Of a stretch of 41,531 nucleotides of DNA, positions 15,090 through 22,974 are shown piece after piece (within the stretch, counting starts at the first letter, position 1; each line of letters opens with the position of its first letter). The stretch spans positions 1 through 41,531 of the forward strand of contig DYMH01000004.1 of assembly GCA_020721645.1 (NCBI GenBank), given 5' to 3'. This stretch comes from Draconibacterium orientale. Lineage in GTDB: Bacteria > Bacteroidota > Bacteroidia > Bacteroidales > JAADGE01. The position numbers and the translations under genes were made by a program. The notes under the pieces are model-generated. The model saw only the letters and a program-made list of their open reading frames with translations, was not told the DNA's origin and made no database searches.

Positions 15090-15440
15090 TCAATTTTGTT
15101 TATATAATGTGAGTTTTTCATTATTATCGAGGTTTTCAACGATAATATAATCGGTGTATCGAAAATAGTCGATGTAAAATAGATTTGATTTGCCGTCGGA
15201 AACGGTGTATCGTTTTGAATTTGGTTCAGGTTTTTCAACGTCTTTTTCCGAAATTCGATATTTGATCCATTTGGCTTTGTCGTTATCGGTCAGTGAAATT
15301 TCAATGACCTGTGAGCCGTCTTCACTTATTTTGAGTAATACATTGATTGTTTTTGACTCGTAAACGCAATATTTTTGTGCGAAACTGTTTTGAAACAATC
15401 CCGAAACAAAGAAAATAACAATGATTAATGTTAACTTCAT
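15090..15440 (-). CDS. Small secreted hypothetical protein (tandem paralogue 1)
   Basis: Signal peptide MKLTLIIVIFFVSGLFQNSFAQ; KYCVYESKTINVLLKISEDGSQV...FYIDYFRYTDYIIVENLDNNEKLTLY. Confidence 0.75.
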   Translation of the reverse strand: MKLTLIIVIFFVSGLFQNSFAQKYCVYESKTINVLLKISEDGSQVIEISLTDNDKAKWIKYRISEKDVEKPEPNSKRYTVSDGKSNLFYIDYFRYTDYIIVENLDNNEKLTLYKQN

Positions 15441-15506
15441 TAAAAAAAGTTTAAAAAATAGATTAAAAGAAAGGTTCATAGAGTGTGAACCTTCCTTCGT
15501 AAATTG

Positions 15507-15872
15507 TTATTCGGCTCTTCTGTAAAGAGTCCAAGCGGTTGAATAATCTTCGGGCGAAACAATAATGTAATCATCGGCACGGAAATAATCAATCCAATAA
15601 ATATCTCCTTTTCCGTCTTTTGCTTTGTAACGGAAGCCGCCTGTTTCAGTTGTTTCAGAATCGCCGTAATCAAGTAAATCAAATTCAATCCAAGCAGTTT
15701 TATCTTCGTTTGAAAAAGATACTCCTAATACTTTGCTGTTGTCGGAACTGCAAGTGAGCATCACATTAAAAGCATCGCCGTCGTAAACAAAATATTTTTG
15801 TGCATCGGCGGTTGATACAAATAAAGAAGCGAAGAAAATCGCAAACAAAGTTAATATTTTCATAGTTATCAA
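15507..15872 (-). CDS. Small secreted hypothetical protein (tandem paralogue 2)
   Basis: Signal peptide; KYFVYDGDAFNVMLTCSSDNSKV...YWIDYFRADDYIIVSPEDYSTAWTLYRR aligns with the neighbouring ORF. Confidence 0.75.
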   Translation of the reverse strand: MITMKILTLFAIFFASLFVSTADAQKYFVYDGDAFNVMLTCSSDNSKVLGVSFSNEDKTAWIEFDLLDYGDSETTETGGFRYKAKDGKGDIYWIDYFRADDYIIVSPEDYSTAWTLYRRAE

Positions 15873-16118: not shown

Positions 16119-16271
16119 ATGAATGAAAAAATTGAAGAGTTAAAAAAGGAACTTGAATTCTTAGAGTTAGAAGACAGACTTGAAATGGTCGTTGCTGCAG
16201 GCGATTGTTGTTGCGTGAATGGTTCGTGCGGTGGTGGTGGTGGTGGAGAAACTCCTGCCCAGCCACGGTAA
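16119..16271 (+). CDS. Putative RiPP precursor peptide (Cys/Gly-rich core), 50 aa, absent from the supplied ORF track
   Basis: Own translation: MNEKIEELKKELEFLELEDRLEMVVAAGDCCCVNGSCGGGGGGETPAQPR*. Charged leader, then CCC...C/G6 core; first ORF of a co-directional operon encoding a radical SAM/SPASM maturase. Confidence 0.85.
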   Translation: MNEKIEELKKELEFLELEDRLEMVVAAGDCCCVNGSCGGGGGGETPAQPR

Positions 16272-16297
16272 GTGTTTATTTATTGCTTTACGAAAAT

Positions 16298-16330
16298 AAA
16301 GTACCTCTATTGCATTTTAGAGGTATCTTT
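16298..16330 (+). terminator. Hairpin / attenuator between precursor and downstream biosynthetic genes
   Basis: aaagTACCTCTA-ttgcattt-TAGAGGTAtcttt: perfect 8-bp core stem followed by a U-rich tail. Confidence 0.65.
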
Positions 16331-16375
16331 ATTTAAAAGCCTACGTTCTAAAATGAGGTATTTATAAAGGTTGAT

Positions 16376-17521
16376 ATGGACAAACTTCTTCTTAAAAGGG
16401 AGTACAAATTAGAAAAAAGGAATGATGATAATTTCCTAATTATTGACGATGAGAGAATCTTGCTCATTAATAAATTTTTCGATTTTATTCTTAGTAGGGT
16501 TACAAAAGATACAGAAGAATCTGAATTATTAAAAGAACTTACTGAAAAATTTAATTTAGAAATGTATGATTCTAAATACGTTTTAGATGAGTATAAAATA
16601 TTTATTGAAAAATGCAACAAAGAGAGTAAAAGCAAAAAATCTTATATTAAATTTCAAATTCAGCTATTAAACAAGAATAAAGTTAAAAAAATATCAAAAC
16701 CTTTCCTGTTTTTATTTAAAGAAAATGTAATATTCCCTATTCTGCTTATAACAATTATTACACATGTTATTTTTATTACAGTAACTGAAATAAATTATAG
16801 CTTTCAAACCTTTAACACGTTTGAAATATTTTTTATTTACATATTGTTTTTTATCTTACTTTTTTTTCATGAGATAGGGCATTCAACTGCAACATTTTTC
16901 TATAAAACAGAACCAAAGGAAATTGGTTTTGGATTTTATTTCATTTTCCCTGTATTTTATACTGATGTTACTAAAATTTGGATGTTAGAAAAAAAACAGA
17001 GACTTATTGTAAATATAGGAGGTGTCTATTTTCAGTTAATTATCAATAGTTTTCTAATGCTTTTGTATATATATACAAAAAATCTCTTTATAATTAACTC
17101 TCTGTCTTTTATAATATTAACTAATATTTATATAATAATTTATTCACTTTTCCCTTTTTTTAGAAATGATGGTTATTGGATTTATTCAGATTTATTCGAT
17201 ATTAAAAATTTATTATATAAGTCTAATTATTTGATTCTTGACATAATAAAAGAAAGAAAAAAAGTTAGGAAAATTGATGATTTTGTAACAATTCTTATTT
17301 TTAGTGTAGCAAATTGGATATTCCGATTTTATGTAATATTTATTCTAATCAAAGGAATTATTAATAGTTTTTTAAGTTTTCATGGAATAATGAATAATAG
17401 TTTAACGGATATTTTAGGGTTATTATTTAAAATAATTCTTATGATAATAGGACTGTATCTGATGTTACATTTTATTTTTTCATTGTTTATAAAAAAATCA
17501 ACTTCTTCTGATGAGTACTAA
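16376..17521 (+). CDS. PqqD-like / M50 membrane metalloprotease fusion (RiPP-associated)
   Basis: N-terminal about 85 aa resembles PqqD-type RRE (ERILLINKFFDFILSRVTKDTEESELLKELTEKF...YVLDEYKIFIEKC); multi-TM with HExxH (FFHEIGHSTATFF) and FRNDGYWIYSDLFDI, as in M50 peptide-zinc-metalloprotease proteins. Confidence 0.78.
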   Translation: MDKLLLKREYKLEKRNDDNFLIIDDERILLINKFFDFILSRVTKDTEESELLKELTEKFNLEMYDSKYVLDEYKIFIEKCNKESKSKKSYIKFQIQLLNKNKVKKISKPFLFLFKENVIFPILLITIITHVIFITVTEINYSFQTFNTFEIFFIYILFFILLFFHEIGHSTATFFYKTEPKEIGFGFYFIFPVFYTDVTKIWMLEKKQRLIVNIGGVYFQLIINSFLMLLYIYTKNLFIINSLSFIILTNIYIIIYSLFPFFRNDGYWIYSDLFDIKNLLYKSNYLILDIIKERKKVRKIDDFVTILIFSVANWIFRFYVIFILIKGIINSFLSFHGIMNNSLTDILGLLFKIILMIIGLYLMLHFIFSLFIKKSTSSDEY

Positions 17522-18611
17522 TAAATACGACAAGATTATAGAAACAATAAGAAATGATGTTAATACTAAAACAAATGGCATCATAAATAATTATAATCAT
17601 CAATACAGAGAGTTTTTTTTGATGGTACAGTCAAACATTATTAGAAATAAGATAGATACACTCGCTGAATTTTTTTTTAGTAATTATTTGTTTTATAATC
17701 ATTTATCTGAATTTTACCAGAATAATTTTTCGATTGAAAATGTTGAAATTGAAGGAAATGTATTTGACTTACCTTGTATTTATGTTACATTTCATCTTGG
17801 ATCATATAAACTTATAAATTTTATCTTGGGATTTAATCAAAAAAAAGTGTGCTTAGTGATTGCCCAAAATACCTTGAAAAGAGAAAGAGAAAAATATCAA
17901 AATCTATATGATGTATATAATTTCAAATTTGATTTTGAAATAGTGGATGCCGAAGCGGTAGGTGCAATTTTTAGAATGAAACGATTGATTGAAAAGGGGT
18001 ATTCTCTTGTATTATATTTGGACGGGAAAACAGAAAAATCTGTTGAAAGCAATTCAGATAAAAGTATTACTTTAATAAAAGTTTTAGAGGATACTATATA
18101 TGCGAAAAAAGGAGCCGGAATTTTGTCGTATTTATTAAAAATACCGATTATACCTGTTATTTCATATTTCGACTCGTCTTATAAGGCAATTATAAAAATT
18201 AACAATCCAATATATCCTGATTTTAACCTTGGGATTAGCGATTATGCCGAAAAACAGACAGTTTGTTTGTGGAGTATGTTTTCTGACTATTTAAAAATAT
18301 ATCCCGAACAATGGGAAGCATGGTCGTATTTTCATGTGTTTCTTAAAAATGAGATTAAAAAAAATGAAATAAAATACGAATTTGCGGATGTAATGAATTT
18401 CAATGAAAAAAGATACACGTTTATTATTGATGAAGAAGAAAATGTTTTTTTATTTGATAAAACTCTCGTTAGTAAATCAAAGATCAGTGTACATCTATTC
18501 AAAATATTAGACTTTGTTAAAATGAATTCTATTACAAGAAATGACATTGGCGAAGTGATAAAAAATACAAAATTGTTAAACAACCTCATTGAACAAGAAA
18601 TATTAATTTGA
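17511..18611 (+). CDS. LpxL/HtrB-like (LABLAT) acyltransferase-family protein with a PqqD-like C-terminus
   Basis: IYVTFHLGSYKLINFIL, YSLVLYLDGKT, AKKGAGILSYLLKIPIIPVISY layout as in lipid A acyltransferases; C-terminal 70 aa (YTFIIDEEENVFLFDKTLVSKSKISVHLFKILDFVKMNSITRNDIGEVIK) looks like a small recognition-type domain. Confidence 0.6.
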   Translation: MSTNKYDKIIETIRNDVNTKTNGIINNYNHQYREFFLMVQSNIIRNKIDTLAEFFFSNYLFYNHLSEFYQNNFSIENVEIEGNVFDLPCIYVTFHLGSYKLINFILGFNQKKVCLVIAQNTLKREREKYQNLYDVYNFKFDFEIVDAEAVGAIFRMKRLIEKGYSLVLYLDGKTEKSVESNSDKSITLIKVLEDTIYAKKGAGILSYLLKIPIIPVISYFDSSYKAIIKINNPIYPDFNLGISDYAEKQTVCLWSMFSDYLKIYPEQWEAWSYFHVFLKNEIKKNEIKYEFADVMNFNEKRYTFIIDEEENVFLFDKTLVSKSKISVHLFKILDFVKMNSITRNDIGEVIKNTKLLNNLIEQEILI

Positions 18612-18616
18612 TTAAA

Positions 18617-21007
18617 ATGAAAAAACTGATTCTATTATTGAACATCGTACTCATATTCAATCCGATGATTTATTCTCAAACTTATGATATAAAATTCAAA
18701 GTTGAAACTGAAACAGGCGAAAGTTTTGAACAAATAAATGTGCTTGTTTTAAAGACCGATTCGTCTTTGATAAAGGGAGATGCTTTTCAAACAAAGGAAA
18801 TAACTATAAAAGGAATAAATAATGATTCTGTAATATTATATATAAACACATTATCATTTTCTGAAAAATATTTAAACATTATAAATTCAAAACACGATAA
18901 AATAATTGATTTAGGAATTATCCATTTAACAGACAACAAATTAAATGAAATTGTAATAAAAGGCAATACTCCGTTAATTAGTTTCGACGGGGATAAAACA
19001 ATACTTAATGTCGAAAATACTTCATTCAGTAATTCCGGCAGTGCCGAAGATATTTTAAAGAAAAGTGCGAAAGTATCTATCGACCAAAATAATACGATAA
19101 GTGTTTTTGGAAAAGGAGAAGCCAAAGTTTACATAAATGATAAACAAATTGTTGATTATGAGGAATTAAGAAATTTAAACTCAAACGATATATTACGGAT
19201 TGAAGTGATAACAAACCCTTCGGCAAAATATGACGCTGATGCAAAAGCTGTTATTAATATCGTTACAAAATCGAACTACAAAAAAGGATTCTATGGATAT
19301 ACGAACAGTTATTTTACGGTAGCTGAGTATTTTAGATATTACGGAAACATTTATTTGTCATATAGAAACAAAAATTTGTTCGTATCCGGATATTATTCCG
19401 TAAACCCTTATAAACAATATTACAAAGATCAATATTCCCGATATTTTGATTATGACACGACTTATATTAAAATGGAAAATACTCTTGAAAAAGTACGACA
19501 CTATTATTCACCGCATACGTATTCTGCCGATATTGGCTACGAACTTGGTAAATTAGGAAAACTTGGATTACGATACAGCGGATACACATACAAAGGGGAT
19601 GAAGAAACTTTGAATATAAACGATGTAGATAAAGAAAATAACAGTTATAAGATAAATACAAGTACGAATTCGGATTTGCGAACACAAAGAAATATTATCA
19701 CTGTCGAATATTTATTAAAAACCGATACATTGGGATCTAACTTAAAGTTAAGTTATGATTTCAGTAATTTTTCCCATTATAAAAATGATAAAATATATGA
19801 AACTATTTCAGGTAATTTATTAGGATACATGGCAGACAAAATAAATACAAACAAAACCGATTTATTTTTTAATTCCGGGTGTATTGATTACTTGCAAGAG
19901 ATTCCCAAAATAAAAAGTTCTGTCAGTTTAGGCGGTAAATATGTTAATATTACAAGCAAAAGCCAAAATGAATTTTTAAAATATATTGATAATGTTTGGG
20001 TTATAAATACGCTGTATTCTCAACTTTTTGATTATGAGGAAAATTTAATTGCAGGTTATGTTATCTTAAACAATAAATTCGGTAAATTTGATATTAAAAC
20101 AGGAATAAGATATGAATCAAACAATTTAATCGGAAAAATTGAATCCCTTCAGAAAAAATACGAAAAGCAATTCCCGGGCTTTTTCCCGAGTTTTGTTTTA
20201 AATTATCAGTGGACAAAAAACTTGGCAACAAGTTTTTCATATTCCAAAAAAGTACGCAGACCGAACTATCAAAGTTTACAACCATTTACGATATATATTG
20301 ATTCTTTATCGTACTACGTCGGAAATCCTGAATTAGAGTCGGAATATCCTAACTCATTCGACTTTACCTTATCTTACAGAAATATGGCATCGGTAAACTT
20401 ATCGTATATCCGCACAAGCAACCCTATTTATATGTTCATATATCCCGATGAAAATAATGACGGAGTAACATATGTAACTCAAAAAAATCTTGATTTATCA
20501 GAAAAAATTGCATTGACTTTGACGATTCCTTATGAAACCAAATTTTGGACAATATACAATTCCGTAGGTTATTCAATTTCAAAAGTTGATTATGTGAGTA
20601 AAAATAATGATATAATTATCAAAAATAATAAACCTTTATTTTATGTTTATACATACAATAAATTTAGTATATTTAAAGATATAAATCTGTATTTTACATA
20701 TCAATATAATTCGTCGGGCATCGATGGGATTTTTGAATTTGAAAGCAAGCATATCGTATCCGCCGGAATTTACAGATCATTTTTCAATAAAAAGCTAAAA
20801 ATACAATTTATTTACAACGATATATTCAAAACAGATGTTTTACATTCAAACACGACATTAAATAATTTATACCTTACGTACGATTCTTATTATGATGCCT
20901 CGTATTTCAGGTTTGTTTTAACTTATAATTTCGGAAAAGAATTTAAGGAAAAAAAAGCCCAAACAGGAATAGGGGATGAACTAAACAGGATAAAGAATGA
21001 ATTTTAA
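18617..21007 (+). CDS. Outer membrane beta-barrel / TonB-dependent-receptor-like protein
   Basis: Signal peptide; plug-like segment SAEDILKKSAKVSIDQNNTISVFGKGEAKVYINDKQIVDYEELRNLNSNDILRIEVITNPSAKYDADAKAVINIVTK, then a long barrel (NPELESEYPNSFDFTLSYR). ORF track extends to TTG at 18608; ATG at 18617 preferred. Confidence 0.85.
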   Translation: MKKLILLLNIVLIFNPMIYSQTYDIKFKVETETGESFEQINVLVLKTDSSLIKGDAFQTKEITIKGINNDSVILYINTLSFSEKYLNIINSKHDKIIDLGIIHLTDNKLNEIVIKGNTPLISFDGDKTILNVENTSFSNSGSAEDILKKSAKVSIDQNNTISVFGKGEAKVYINDKQIVDYEELRNLNSNDILRIEVITNPSAKYDADAKAVINIVTKSNYKKGFYGYTNSYFTVAEYFRYYGNIYLSYRNKNLFVSGYYSVNPYKQYYKDQYSRYFDYDTTYIKMENTLEKVRHYYSPHTYSADIGYELGKLGKLGLRYSGYTYKGDEETLNINDVDKENNSYKINTSTNSDLRTQRNIITVEYLLKTDTLGSNLKLSYDFSNFSHYKNDKIYETISGNLLGYMADKINTNKTDLFFNSGCIDYLQEIPKIKSSVSLGGKYVNITSKSQNEFLKYIDNVWVINTLYSQLFDYEENLIAGYVILNNKFGKFDIKTGIRYESNNLIGKIESLQKKYEKQFPGFFPSFVLNYQWTKNLATSFSYSKKVRRPNYQSLQPFTIYIDSLSYYVGNPELESEYPNSFDFTLSYRNMASVNLSYIRTSNPIYMFIYPDENNDGVTYVTQKNLDLSEKIALTLTIPYETKFWTIYNSVGYSISKVDYVSKNNDIIIKNNKPLFYVYTYNKFSIFKDINLYFTYQYNSSGIDGIFEFESKHIVSAGIYRSFFNKKLKIQFIYNDIFKTDVLHSNTTLNNLYLTYDSYYDASYFRFVLTYNFGKEFKEKKAQTGIGDELNRIKNEF

Positions 21008-22337
21008 TCTCTCGAAATACGTAGAAATCAGCGAGTCTATAACAAAAAACGGAAGTTGTGTCGTGTTTTCTTTAATAACAGGCTTAATTATTTTAATTTC
21101 GGAAAAAGAATTATCTTATATTAACCAAAAGAAATTTGAATTATTAAACAGCGAACTTTTTAAAAAACTGAAAGAATTTAGAATTATTATTCCGGAAGGA
21201 GATGATGAGATTTCACAAGTTATATTCAAACTTAATCATGATTGTAATTCCAACAATGAATTACATATCGTAATTCACCCGACCGCCGAATGTCAGCTTA
21301 GGTGTTCGTACTGTGGACAATCTCATTTAAAGCAAAAATTATCAGAACAGGATATATACAGAATAGTTGAGTATATTGAAAGTAAACTTAAAGAAAAAAA
21401 ATATACAAAATTATATATTGTATGGTTTGGCGGAGAACCAATATTGGCAATAGAAAAAATTAAAAAAATTTCCATAATTTTAATTGAATTATCCGAAAGG
21501 TATAATTGTAAATATGAATCAAAAATAGTATCTAACGGATTTTCTTTAACTTTAAATAAATATATCCGGCTTTCATCTTTAAATGTAAAACAAATCGAAA
21601 TAACATTAGACGGAGATGAAAAAAATCACGATAGCAGAAGAAAAACAAAAAAAACATCCGGTTCTTTTCAAACCATCATAAAAAATCTTATCTCAATACG
21701 GAATTATTCAGAGAATAATGAAAATAATATTAAAATTATTCTTCGAATAAATGTTGACAAAGAAAATTTTAAATCAGTAGAAAGTTTGATAGACACCGTA
21801 ATCGAAAACAAATTAGAACAAATAATAGAATCAATTTACTTGGCACCTATTCATTCTTGGGGTAATAATGCTCACTTAAATTCCTTATCAAAAGAAAAGT
21901 TTGCAGAAATTGAAATTAATTTTCTTATAAAACAAATAAAAAACGGTCTAAAACCGACATTTATCCCGAAAATAAACAATATTTGGGATTGTATTACGTT
22001 AAAAGCCGATTCACTTGTTTTTGATGCAAACGGTGATTTTTCTTATTGCACCGAGGTGCCATATACTCCTGTATATCAGAATACTGATTGGTTTTTAAAA
22101 TCAATAAATAATAATATTAACATAGAAAAGCGAAATAAATCCAAGTTTATTTCGACGGTATTAAATGCAGAATCAAAATGCCGATCGTGTAAATATCTGC
22201 CGATTTGCGGAGGTGGTTGCCCCAAATTATTTTTAGAAGGACATGATACTTGTACGATAAATAAATTCAATTTAAAAGAAAAACTTTTATTATACGCATA
22301 TACTTCGTTGAAAAATTTGTCGTTTGCAAAAGACTAA
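20997..22337 (+). CDS. Radical SAM/SPASM peptide maturase
   Basis: CxxxCxxC in TAECQLRCSYCGQ, WFGGEPIL, and SPASM-type Cys cluster CITLKADSLVFDANGDFSYC...CRSCKYLPICGGGCPKLFLEGHDTC; N-terminal about 85 aa typical of maturase leader-binding domains. Confidence 0.92.
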   Translation: MNFNLSKYVEISESITKNGSCVVFSLITGLIILISEKELSYINQKKFELLNSELFKKLKEFRIIIPEGDDEISQVIFKLNHDCNSNNELHIVIHPTAECQLRCSYCGQSHLKQKLSEQDIYRIVEYIESKLKEKKYTKLYIVWFGGEPILAIEKIKKISIILIELSERYNCKYESKIVSNGFSLTLNKYIRLSSLNVKQIEITLDGDEKNHDSRRKTKKTSGSFQTIIKNLISIRNYSENNENNIKIILRINVDKENFKSVESLIDTVIENKLEQIIESIYLAPIHSWGNNAHLNSLSKEKFAEIEINFLIKQIKNGLKPTFIPKINNIWDCITLKADSLVFDANGDFSYCTEVPYTPVYQNTDWFLKSINNNINIEKRNKSKFISTVLNAESKCRSCKYLPICGGGCPKLFLEGHDTCTINKFNLKEKLLLYAYTSLKNLSFAKD

Positions 22338-22380
22338 ATAATAGAATCGTGCTTTCAAATTTACATTTTTTTAAATGGAA

Positions 22381-22406
22381 AAAAATCGCTCCTAAAAGCG
22401 ATTTTT
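22381..22406. terminator. Bidirectional terminator between RiPP operon and TA module
   Basis: AAAAATCGCT-CCTAAA-AGCGATTTTT hairpin with A/T tails, between convergent genes. Confidence 0.8.
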
Positions 22407-22436: not shown

Positions 22437-22751
22437 TTATTCATTATCAGCCCGTTCTATCCAAATTTCAGGATTTCGACTTGTATGAAAAATTGCAATT
22501 ATTTTTACAACTTTTTCTTTAATTTTGTAATAAATAACGAAAGGAAAATTTTTTAAAACTACTTTTCTAATATCTTTGTAAACAGCAGGATAGACCTCCG
22601 GATTTTTACTAATTTGTATGAAAGTGCTGTCTGCTTTTTTTATAAAATTTGTTGCAACTTTTTGGCTTTCTTTGGCATGGTAATAATAAGATTTGTCAAA
22701 ATCATCTTCGGCTTCATCTGATAATTCTACATTATACTTTTGTGGTTTCAT
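22437..22751 (-). CDS. RelE/ParE family toxin
   Basis: YNVELSDEAEDDFDKSYYYHAKES...FPFVIYYKIKEKVVKIIAIFHTSRNPEIW. Confidence 0.92.
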   Translation of the reverse strand: MKPQKYNVELSDEAEDDFDKSYYYHAKESQKVATNFIKKADSTFIQISKNPEVYPAVYKDIRKVVLKNFPFVIYYKIKEKVVKIIAIFHTSRNPEIWIERADNE

Positions 22752-22974
22752 ATTTTTTCTTTATCAAATCCCAACTGTTAAAAGTTGTTTCACCTCTCTC
22801 AATTCGTTGCAAACGTTTTTCTAATAATACTTTATGCTCATTAGGAAGCGATGTTTCTTCTTTGATATCAATAATTTCAACGTAGTCGAATTCTTGCAAA
22901 AGTTTAATAAAGAAAGCGAGTTTTGTTTGTTCCTTTATACAAATTGTCAGTTCCATAACTAATTTTTTTAACAA
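22732..22974 (-). CDS. Cognate antitoxin-like protein (addiction module component)
   Basis: Small ORF directly upstream of and overlapping the toxin; LPNEHKVLLEKRLQRIERGETTFNSWDLIKKKYE is typical of this class. Actual start is probably an internal Met (MELTICI...). Confidence 0.75.
   Translation of the reverse strand: MLKKLVMELTICIKEQTKLAFFIKLLQEFDYVEIIDIKEETSLPNEHKVLLEKRLQRIERGETTFNSWDLIKKKYETTKV

Follow-up and report, generated by a model that had tools for sequence, protein, structure and literature searches.

Sequence analysis of a 41,531-nucleotide stretch of Draconibacterium orientale (GenBank assembly GCA_020721645.1, contig DYMH01000004.1; the whole stretch is called the window below) revealed five co-directional plus-strand genes at 16119-22337 that almost certainly form an operon for a ribosomally synthesized and post-translationally modified peptide (RiPP), with a 50-aa open reading frame (ORF) as its precursor gene. 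The operon has what is generally expected of RiPP systems, a short precursor gene with a conserved leader and adjoining modifying enzymes, and very probably it produces a small cysteine-rich peptide that is modified by an enzyme and freed by a membrane protease. The full explanation that we favor, at a probability of roughly 0.55, is an acquired cassette for a cysteine-crosslinked, possibly acylated RiPP released by an M50 protease. The initial annotation, made from the DNA letters, had described five tightly packed co-directional ORFs with overlaps at 17511/17521 and 20997/21007, and both the closely spaced layout and the overlaps proved real.

In the mechanism we propose, a leader motif, ELEDRLEM, would be read by domains resembling PqqD or RiPP recognition elements (RREs) on the protease and on an LpxL-like protein. 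A radical S-adenosylmethionine (SAM)/SPASM enzyme would modify the Cys-rich core, CCCVNGSCGGGGGGETPAQPR, with Cys thioether crosslinks as the likeliest result, and the RRE-tethered LpxL-fold protein might transfer an acyl group by an altered mechanism in which the catalytic His is kept and the acid is replaced by Lys; alternatively, it might present the peptide at the membrane. The M50 intramembrane protease would cut shortly past the leader motif and free the product across the inner membrane, making an ATP-binding cassette (ABC) exporter unnecessary; an outer-membrane barrel would handle the crossing of the outer membrane or recognition there. The product could act as a signal, an antagonist or a metallophore.

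The precursor and its predicted protease

A profile made from the precursors of six relatives, with the window's own precursor left out, ranked 16119-16271 first among the 502 small ORFs of the window (E 5.4e-9; the runner-up scored E 1.6). This peptide has the form MNEKIEELKKELEFLELEDRLEMV...DCCCVNGSC, and its last residue is Arg. Precursors from Edaphocola, of the form MNxFEQLKKKLEVVKLEERLEMV...GCCSFTDSSCNPKE, have a leader that is clearly homologous to that of the window's peptide. The window precursor matched no family, and these precursors are covered by no curated Pfam or NCBIfam family; PHROGs likewise has no family for the window's precursor or its LpxL-like protein. The initial annotation had said that it would give up the operon if the radical SAM gene never stood beside a short Cys-containing ORF or if the precursor were not conserved; relatives show both the co-occurrence and, by profile and by tandem homologues, the conservation. 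Every precursor found at loci with radical SAM and M50 genes has at least one Cys.

The leader motif was counted strictly, as [LIM]Ex[RH][LF]E in a short same-strand ORF no more than 3.5 kb from an M50 gene, and was found in 21 of 31 fetched entries, which correspond to 14 of about 20 distinct loci as many entries repeat one locus; the expectation in Markov-shuffled flanks was 0.1. At related radical SAM loci where a C39-peptidase-type ABC transporter takes the place of the M50 gene, no leader-motif ORF was found, which ties the motif to the M50 protease.

The protease itself matched the metalloprotease models for daptides (NF041824, E 5e-25, 88 bits against a cut-off of 300) and epipeptides (NF058609, E 8e-16, 58 bits against 225), below the cut-off in both cases. 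It has HEIGH at residues 165-169 and an NDGYW region, and the metal-site residues are invariant in eight proteins. Its N-terminus (residues ~1-80) is PqqD-like in look, with PqqD as the best PDB profile match (E 0.25 only). The second-best match of that N-terminal profile was PDB 8xgq_B (LtpM1 residues 345-420, E 0.56), possibly another peptide-binding domain; a literature search on LtpM1 found nothing pertinent.

The peptidase of daptides depends on an RRE, and another RRE protein of that pathway needs leader residues L-7 and M-4 (PMC10036551). The residues quoted there form a leader motif whose acidic/hydrophobic composition matches that of ELEDRLE. For EpeP, the epipeptide M50 protease, both cleavage and export have been proposed (PMC10885120), and a single M50 protein with both activities would explain an operon without an ABC exporter. 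We predict that the M50 protein of the window is the leader peptidase and possibly the exporter as well. A further literature search on daptide M50 proteins gave nothing pertinent. The epipeptide locus yydFGHIJ was the comparison drawn initially; daptides are a further close relative of the protease.

The predicted tailoring enzymes

The last gene of the operon encodes the radical SAM/SPASM maturase that had been annotated (PF04055, E 1e-13), with a CX3CX2C motif at residues 99-106 and SPASM cysteines that are complete and invariant in three relatives. Its best named match was TIGR04463, with 197 of the 525 bits required, and it falls below the cut-off of every named maturase. Homologues came from an alignment-based scan of genome contigs, where a single-sequence scan gave none. 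Phylogenetic analysis placed the enzyme in a 17-member clade (support 100/99) that excludes a TIGR04463 protein. Loci whose partners are ABC, terpene-cyclase-like or LpxL-like proteins are intermixed in this clade, and the window's enzyme sits on a long, unplaced row; because partner types are so mixed, tailoring genes have probably been exchanged among loci. The maturase type and the Cys-rich core together tip the balance slightly toward Cys thioethers as what the enzyme makes. At one related locus (L022:6561-7979) the radical SAM gene, which lies beside an LEELEKRLE precursor and an M50 gene, carries one in-frame TGA outside the cluster-binding region, indicating a pseudogene or a sequencing error.

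Sequence libraries saw only weak similarity in the LpxL-like protein (Pfam Acyltransferase, E 0.11), so that the initial label could not be confirmed by sequence; it is confirmed by fold. An AlphaFold2 model from 14 sequences (predicted local distance difference test score, pLDDT, 84; 45 with three sequences) matched PatA and LpxM at E ~1e-8, identifying an LpxL/PatA fold. A lower-ranked match of the same model was TbiB1, a lasso-peptide RRE protein, in its leader-bound complex (85 columns; E 0.39, probability 0.92). We attribute that match to the C-terminal domain, residues ~290-366, from a fold list that carries no aligned residues; a sequence profile of the domain gave no RRE match. Flexirubin-type relatives (L096, L097) are without this domain. 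With a putative RRE-like domain, the LpxL-like protein probably binds the peptide. Searches of plasmids with the LpxL-like protein returned no match, PDB sequence searches with the whole protein and with its C-terminal domain returned nothing meaningful, and a literature search on FlmE/OhkG found nothing pertinent.

The acid of the HX4D/E catalytic motif, which is replaced in the E127A variant of LpxM in PDB 5knk and is named there as a catalytic residue, is Lys in the window protein (FHLGSYK). Among relatives, 13 loci have Arg at the acid position, in HxGSYR or a close variant; the motif is HFGPFL in Edaphocola and HYGPYY in the Chitinophagaceae locus L095, and only the flexirubin-type L096 and L097 retain HX4E. 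All 14 diverse homologues compared have the His and the Gly that follows it, and an Asp-Gly motif is almost as strictly conserved. Replacement of the acid argues against standard LpxL chemistry and makes acylation less certain than the fold suggests. The protein is accordingly described here as a predicted peptide acyltransferase or peptide-binding partner, and we place acylation of the peptide at a little under even odds.

Related loci and competing explanations

The nearest full relative was found in Edaphocola flava/aurantiacus (L030, which is the same as L043, and L042), where a radical SAM gene, three tandem precursors, LpxL-like and M50 genes, a gene for a small secreted protein and an outer-membrane barrel occur together. 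Across a wider Bacteroidota set, one leader motif and one M50 type appear to be paired with varied tailoring enzymes: terpene-cyclase-like fusions, P450, the LpxL-like protein and radical SAM enzymes. The gene combination, proposed initially to fit no named RiPP class, does not fit one, but it belongs to this set and is not isolated. In sister radical SAM loci a polyprenyl-synthase-like and squalene-hopene-cyclase-like fusion replaces the LpxL-like protein, sometimes with a P450, and such loci could yield terpenoid-modified RiPPs. Fusions of this kind lie beside M50 genes and LExRLE peptides at L029:9932-11932 and in L023, L031, L037, L038, L039, L041 and L045, and Hymenobacter plasmids (L033, L034) encode shorter, N-terminal-only versions. 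An LpxL-like domain was also considered for the 660-aa proteins of sister loci, but profile comparison gave it a probability of only 0.2% and the idea was dropped; they are the polyprenyl-synthase-like plus squalene-hopene-cyclase-like proteins.

A search of 299 Chitinophagaceae genomes turned up the LpxL-like protein in 17, the weakest matches (e.g. L096, L097) being flexirubin-type enzymes. Also found in Chitinophagaceae was a locus (L095, 344-11794) with LEERLE peptides, an M50 gene, an LpxL-like homologue, ketosynthases, an aromatic lyase, an AMP ligase and an ATP-grasp-like protein. The locus, in which the ketosynthases, lyase and ligase make up an aryl-polyene-like set, may be a peptide-polyketide hybrid cluster with a source of acyl chains, and of the circumstantial evidence for acyl transfer it is the strongest.

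Loci outside the radical SAM type raise the possibility that the product is a pheromone matured by the LpxL-like protein and sensed by a two-component system, the window's cassette being a derivative with its kinase and regulator elsewhere or lost. At 12 of 13 such loci a LytS-like kinase and a LytTR regulator directly follow the LpxL-like homologue, and upstream of it is a short ORF whose core, in several genera, is SCC[FI]DTQPPxPPG or a close variant, a layout that works like ComQXPA/agr; sister loci L038 and L039 likewise have kinase genes nearby. The arrangement of peptide, LpxL-like/RRE-like protein, LytS and LytTR is conserved in L084-L094 and L107 (Chitinophagaceae and one other family), a candidate peptide-signaling system in Bacteroidota, and LytS/LytTR-linked loci L089 and L092 also have an M50 gene and LExRLE peptides. 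The window and Edaphocola operons, however, have no adjoining kinase/regulator pair, and the signaling-like loci lack a radical SAM enzyme and an outer-membrane barrel. We regard a pheromone as an unlikely, if serious, alternative. Less probable by a good margin is a metallophore, a Cys-modified peptide that would bind a metal such as copper and be re-imported by the TonB-dependent-like barrel. The Cys-rich core would suit such a role, as would the homologous receptor-like barrels, which were seen at 10 of the 16 related radical SAM loci (the window counted), with and without ABC exporters, but the Cys count is no more than one or two in several precursors, no metal-regulator gene was recognized nearby, and six of the loci are without the barrel.

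The LpxL-like protein might instead be a catalytically dead, RRE-bearing scaffold, with the peptide left unacylated. That the whole peptide-linked clade has lost the HX4D/E acid speaks for this, but conservation of the His-Gly and Asp-Gly motifs would be unusual in a mere scaffold, and the Arg/Lys that replaces the acid is conserved too; on balance we consider a dead enzyme doubtful. That the genes are unrelated ordinary neighbors around a spurious 50-aa ORF is very improbable. Cys content alone is weak evidence for the precursor, as four or more Cys occur within the last 25 residues in 6 of the 172 window ORFs that are 40-120 aa long, but precursor homology, tandem copies and syntenic relatives contradict a spurious ORF. 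Some observations do weigh against the crosslinked, M50-released RiPP that we favor: the PqqD-like label on the protease is not significant by sequence, leaving the M50 part of the annotated PqqD-M50 fusion secure and the PqqD part not established; the LpxL-like protein departs from the HX4D/E motif; the window and Edaphocola radical SAM enzymes show no supported grouping in the tree; and the barrel is missing from those six loci.

Operon setting, known systems and significance

Feature coordinates are listed in the table below. The barrel protein, annotated initially as an outer-membrane receptor, was identified by OMP_b-brl_3 (PF14905, E 2e-71) and Plug (E 0.002). A mechanical ORF call starts its gene at TTG 18608, and the ATG at 18617 yields a signal peptide, MKKLILLLNIVLIFNPMIYSQ.

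Features of the predicted RiPP operon in the window
Feature	Coordinates	Strand	Details
Predicted RiPP precursor gene, 50 aa	16119..16271	+	Sequence MNEKIEELKKELEFLELEDRLEMVVAAGDCCCVNGSCGGGGGGETPAQPR; leader motif ELEDRLEM; 4 Cys in core
Hairpin between precursor and protease genes, T-rich tail	16301..16326	+	9 pairs
M50 metalloprotease with putative N-terminal PqqD-like domain, 381 aa	16376..17521	+	Daptide and epipeptide M50 models
LpxL/PatA-fold protein with putative C-terminal RRE-like domain, 366 aa	17511..18611	+	Structure model
Outer-membrane beta-barrel, TonB-dependent-receptor-like	18617..21007	+	PF14905, Plug; signal peptide
Radical SAM/SPASM maturase, 446 aa	20997..22337	+	PF04055, TIGR04463, invariant cysteines
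Terminator-like hairpin closing the operon	22381..22406	scored on minus strand	11 pairs and T tail

The hairpin after the radical SAM gene is real, as the initial annotation of a terminator there had it, but it scored on the minus strand, and it is plausible only that it works in both directions. The hairpin between precursor and protease genes may be an attenuator that favors precursor expression. No Bacteroidota-type promoter was found 5' of 16119, and such matches in the window were no more frequent than chance. The block at 16.5-22.5 kb has a guanine-cytosine content of 22-28%, compared to 29-42% elsewhere in the window, and no radical SAM gene of this kind was found in 20 other searched genomes of the same family, so the operon is probably a horizontally acquired cassette. 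Immediately downstream and convergent with it, on the minus strand at 22437-22974, are a ParE/RelE-type toxin and an Unstab_antitox antitoxin. On the other side, at 15090-15872 on the minus strand, are genes for two adjoining small secreted proteins of related sequence (YFVYDGDAFNVMLTCSSDNSKV and YCVYESKTINVLLKISEDGSQV) that belong to no family and are probably a tandem duplication.

The operon fits none of the named RiPP classes tested, and in its working it appears to be a daptide/epipeptide-type M50 system with different tailoring. Daptide systems (MpaA/MpaB/MpaC/MpaD/MpaM/MpaP) have an RRE-dependent intramembrane M50 peptidase, which the window's protease resembles by NF041824 similarity, and share an acidic/hydrophobic leader motif just before the core (PMC10036551), whereas the window operon is without the decarboxylase, aminotransferase and methyltransferase (MpaB/C/D/M) and the C-terminal Thr, has a radical SAM enzyme, an LpxL-like protein and a barrel instead, and reaches only 88 of 300 bits. 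Epipeptide loci (yydFGHIJ/epeXEPAB) likewise combine a precursor, a radical SAM enzyme and an M50 protease that may also export, but the precursor of the window is not YydF-like, its protease reaches 58 of 225 bits, the ABC pair is missing, and the barrel and LpxL-like protein are additional. The maturases TIGR04463, CefB, Clo7bot and PapB, the last of which makes thioethers (ranthipeptides), are the best radical SAM matches and act on Cys-containing substrates; the window enzyme differs in its score against TIGR04463 (197/525 bits), its own clade (100/99) and its other precursors and partners.

LpxL, LpxM and PatA share the fold and catalytic His of the LpxL-like protein, which differs in the Lys at the acid position, the putative extra C-terminal RRE-like domain and the peptide context. 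The LytS/LytTR-linked relatives resemble ComQXPA and agr in having a short peptide, a lipid-type or membrane processing protein, a kinase and a regulator, but no sequence relation was shown, and the window locus has neither kinase nor regulator. DAG-RiPPs and other lipidated RiPPs (PMC12636315) also combine peptide modification with lipid in Bacteroidota, but through a lipoprotein pathway, where the window locus has a dedicated LpxL-fold protein. We regard the system as a new RiPP subtype and not a new kind of system, with a real chance that it is a new RiPP class. A bolder proposal, which we hold only tentatively and think unlikely in full, is an undescribed Bacteroidota RiPP class in which an RRE-tethered LpxL-fold enzyme with the acid changed to Arg/Lys acylates by a new mechanism, the same type of enzyme maturing lipopeptide pheromones read by LytS/LytTR.

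If the explanation favored here is true, one leader/protease pair would be a platform joined with radical SAM enzymes, P450s, terpene-cyclase-like and LpxL-fold proteins, and the leader motif, the M50 protease and FHxGSYR/K would serve as direct handles for genome mining. The open-access literature searched described no peptide signaling with LytTR in Bacteroidota, and the LytS/LytTR association makes such signaling directly testable. In other bacteria, homologues of the LpxL-like protein adjoin peptides that look like signals, together with a sensor and its regulator, and this points to a family of bacterial peptides, as yet uncharted, that are modified and possibly carry lipid.

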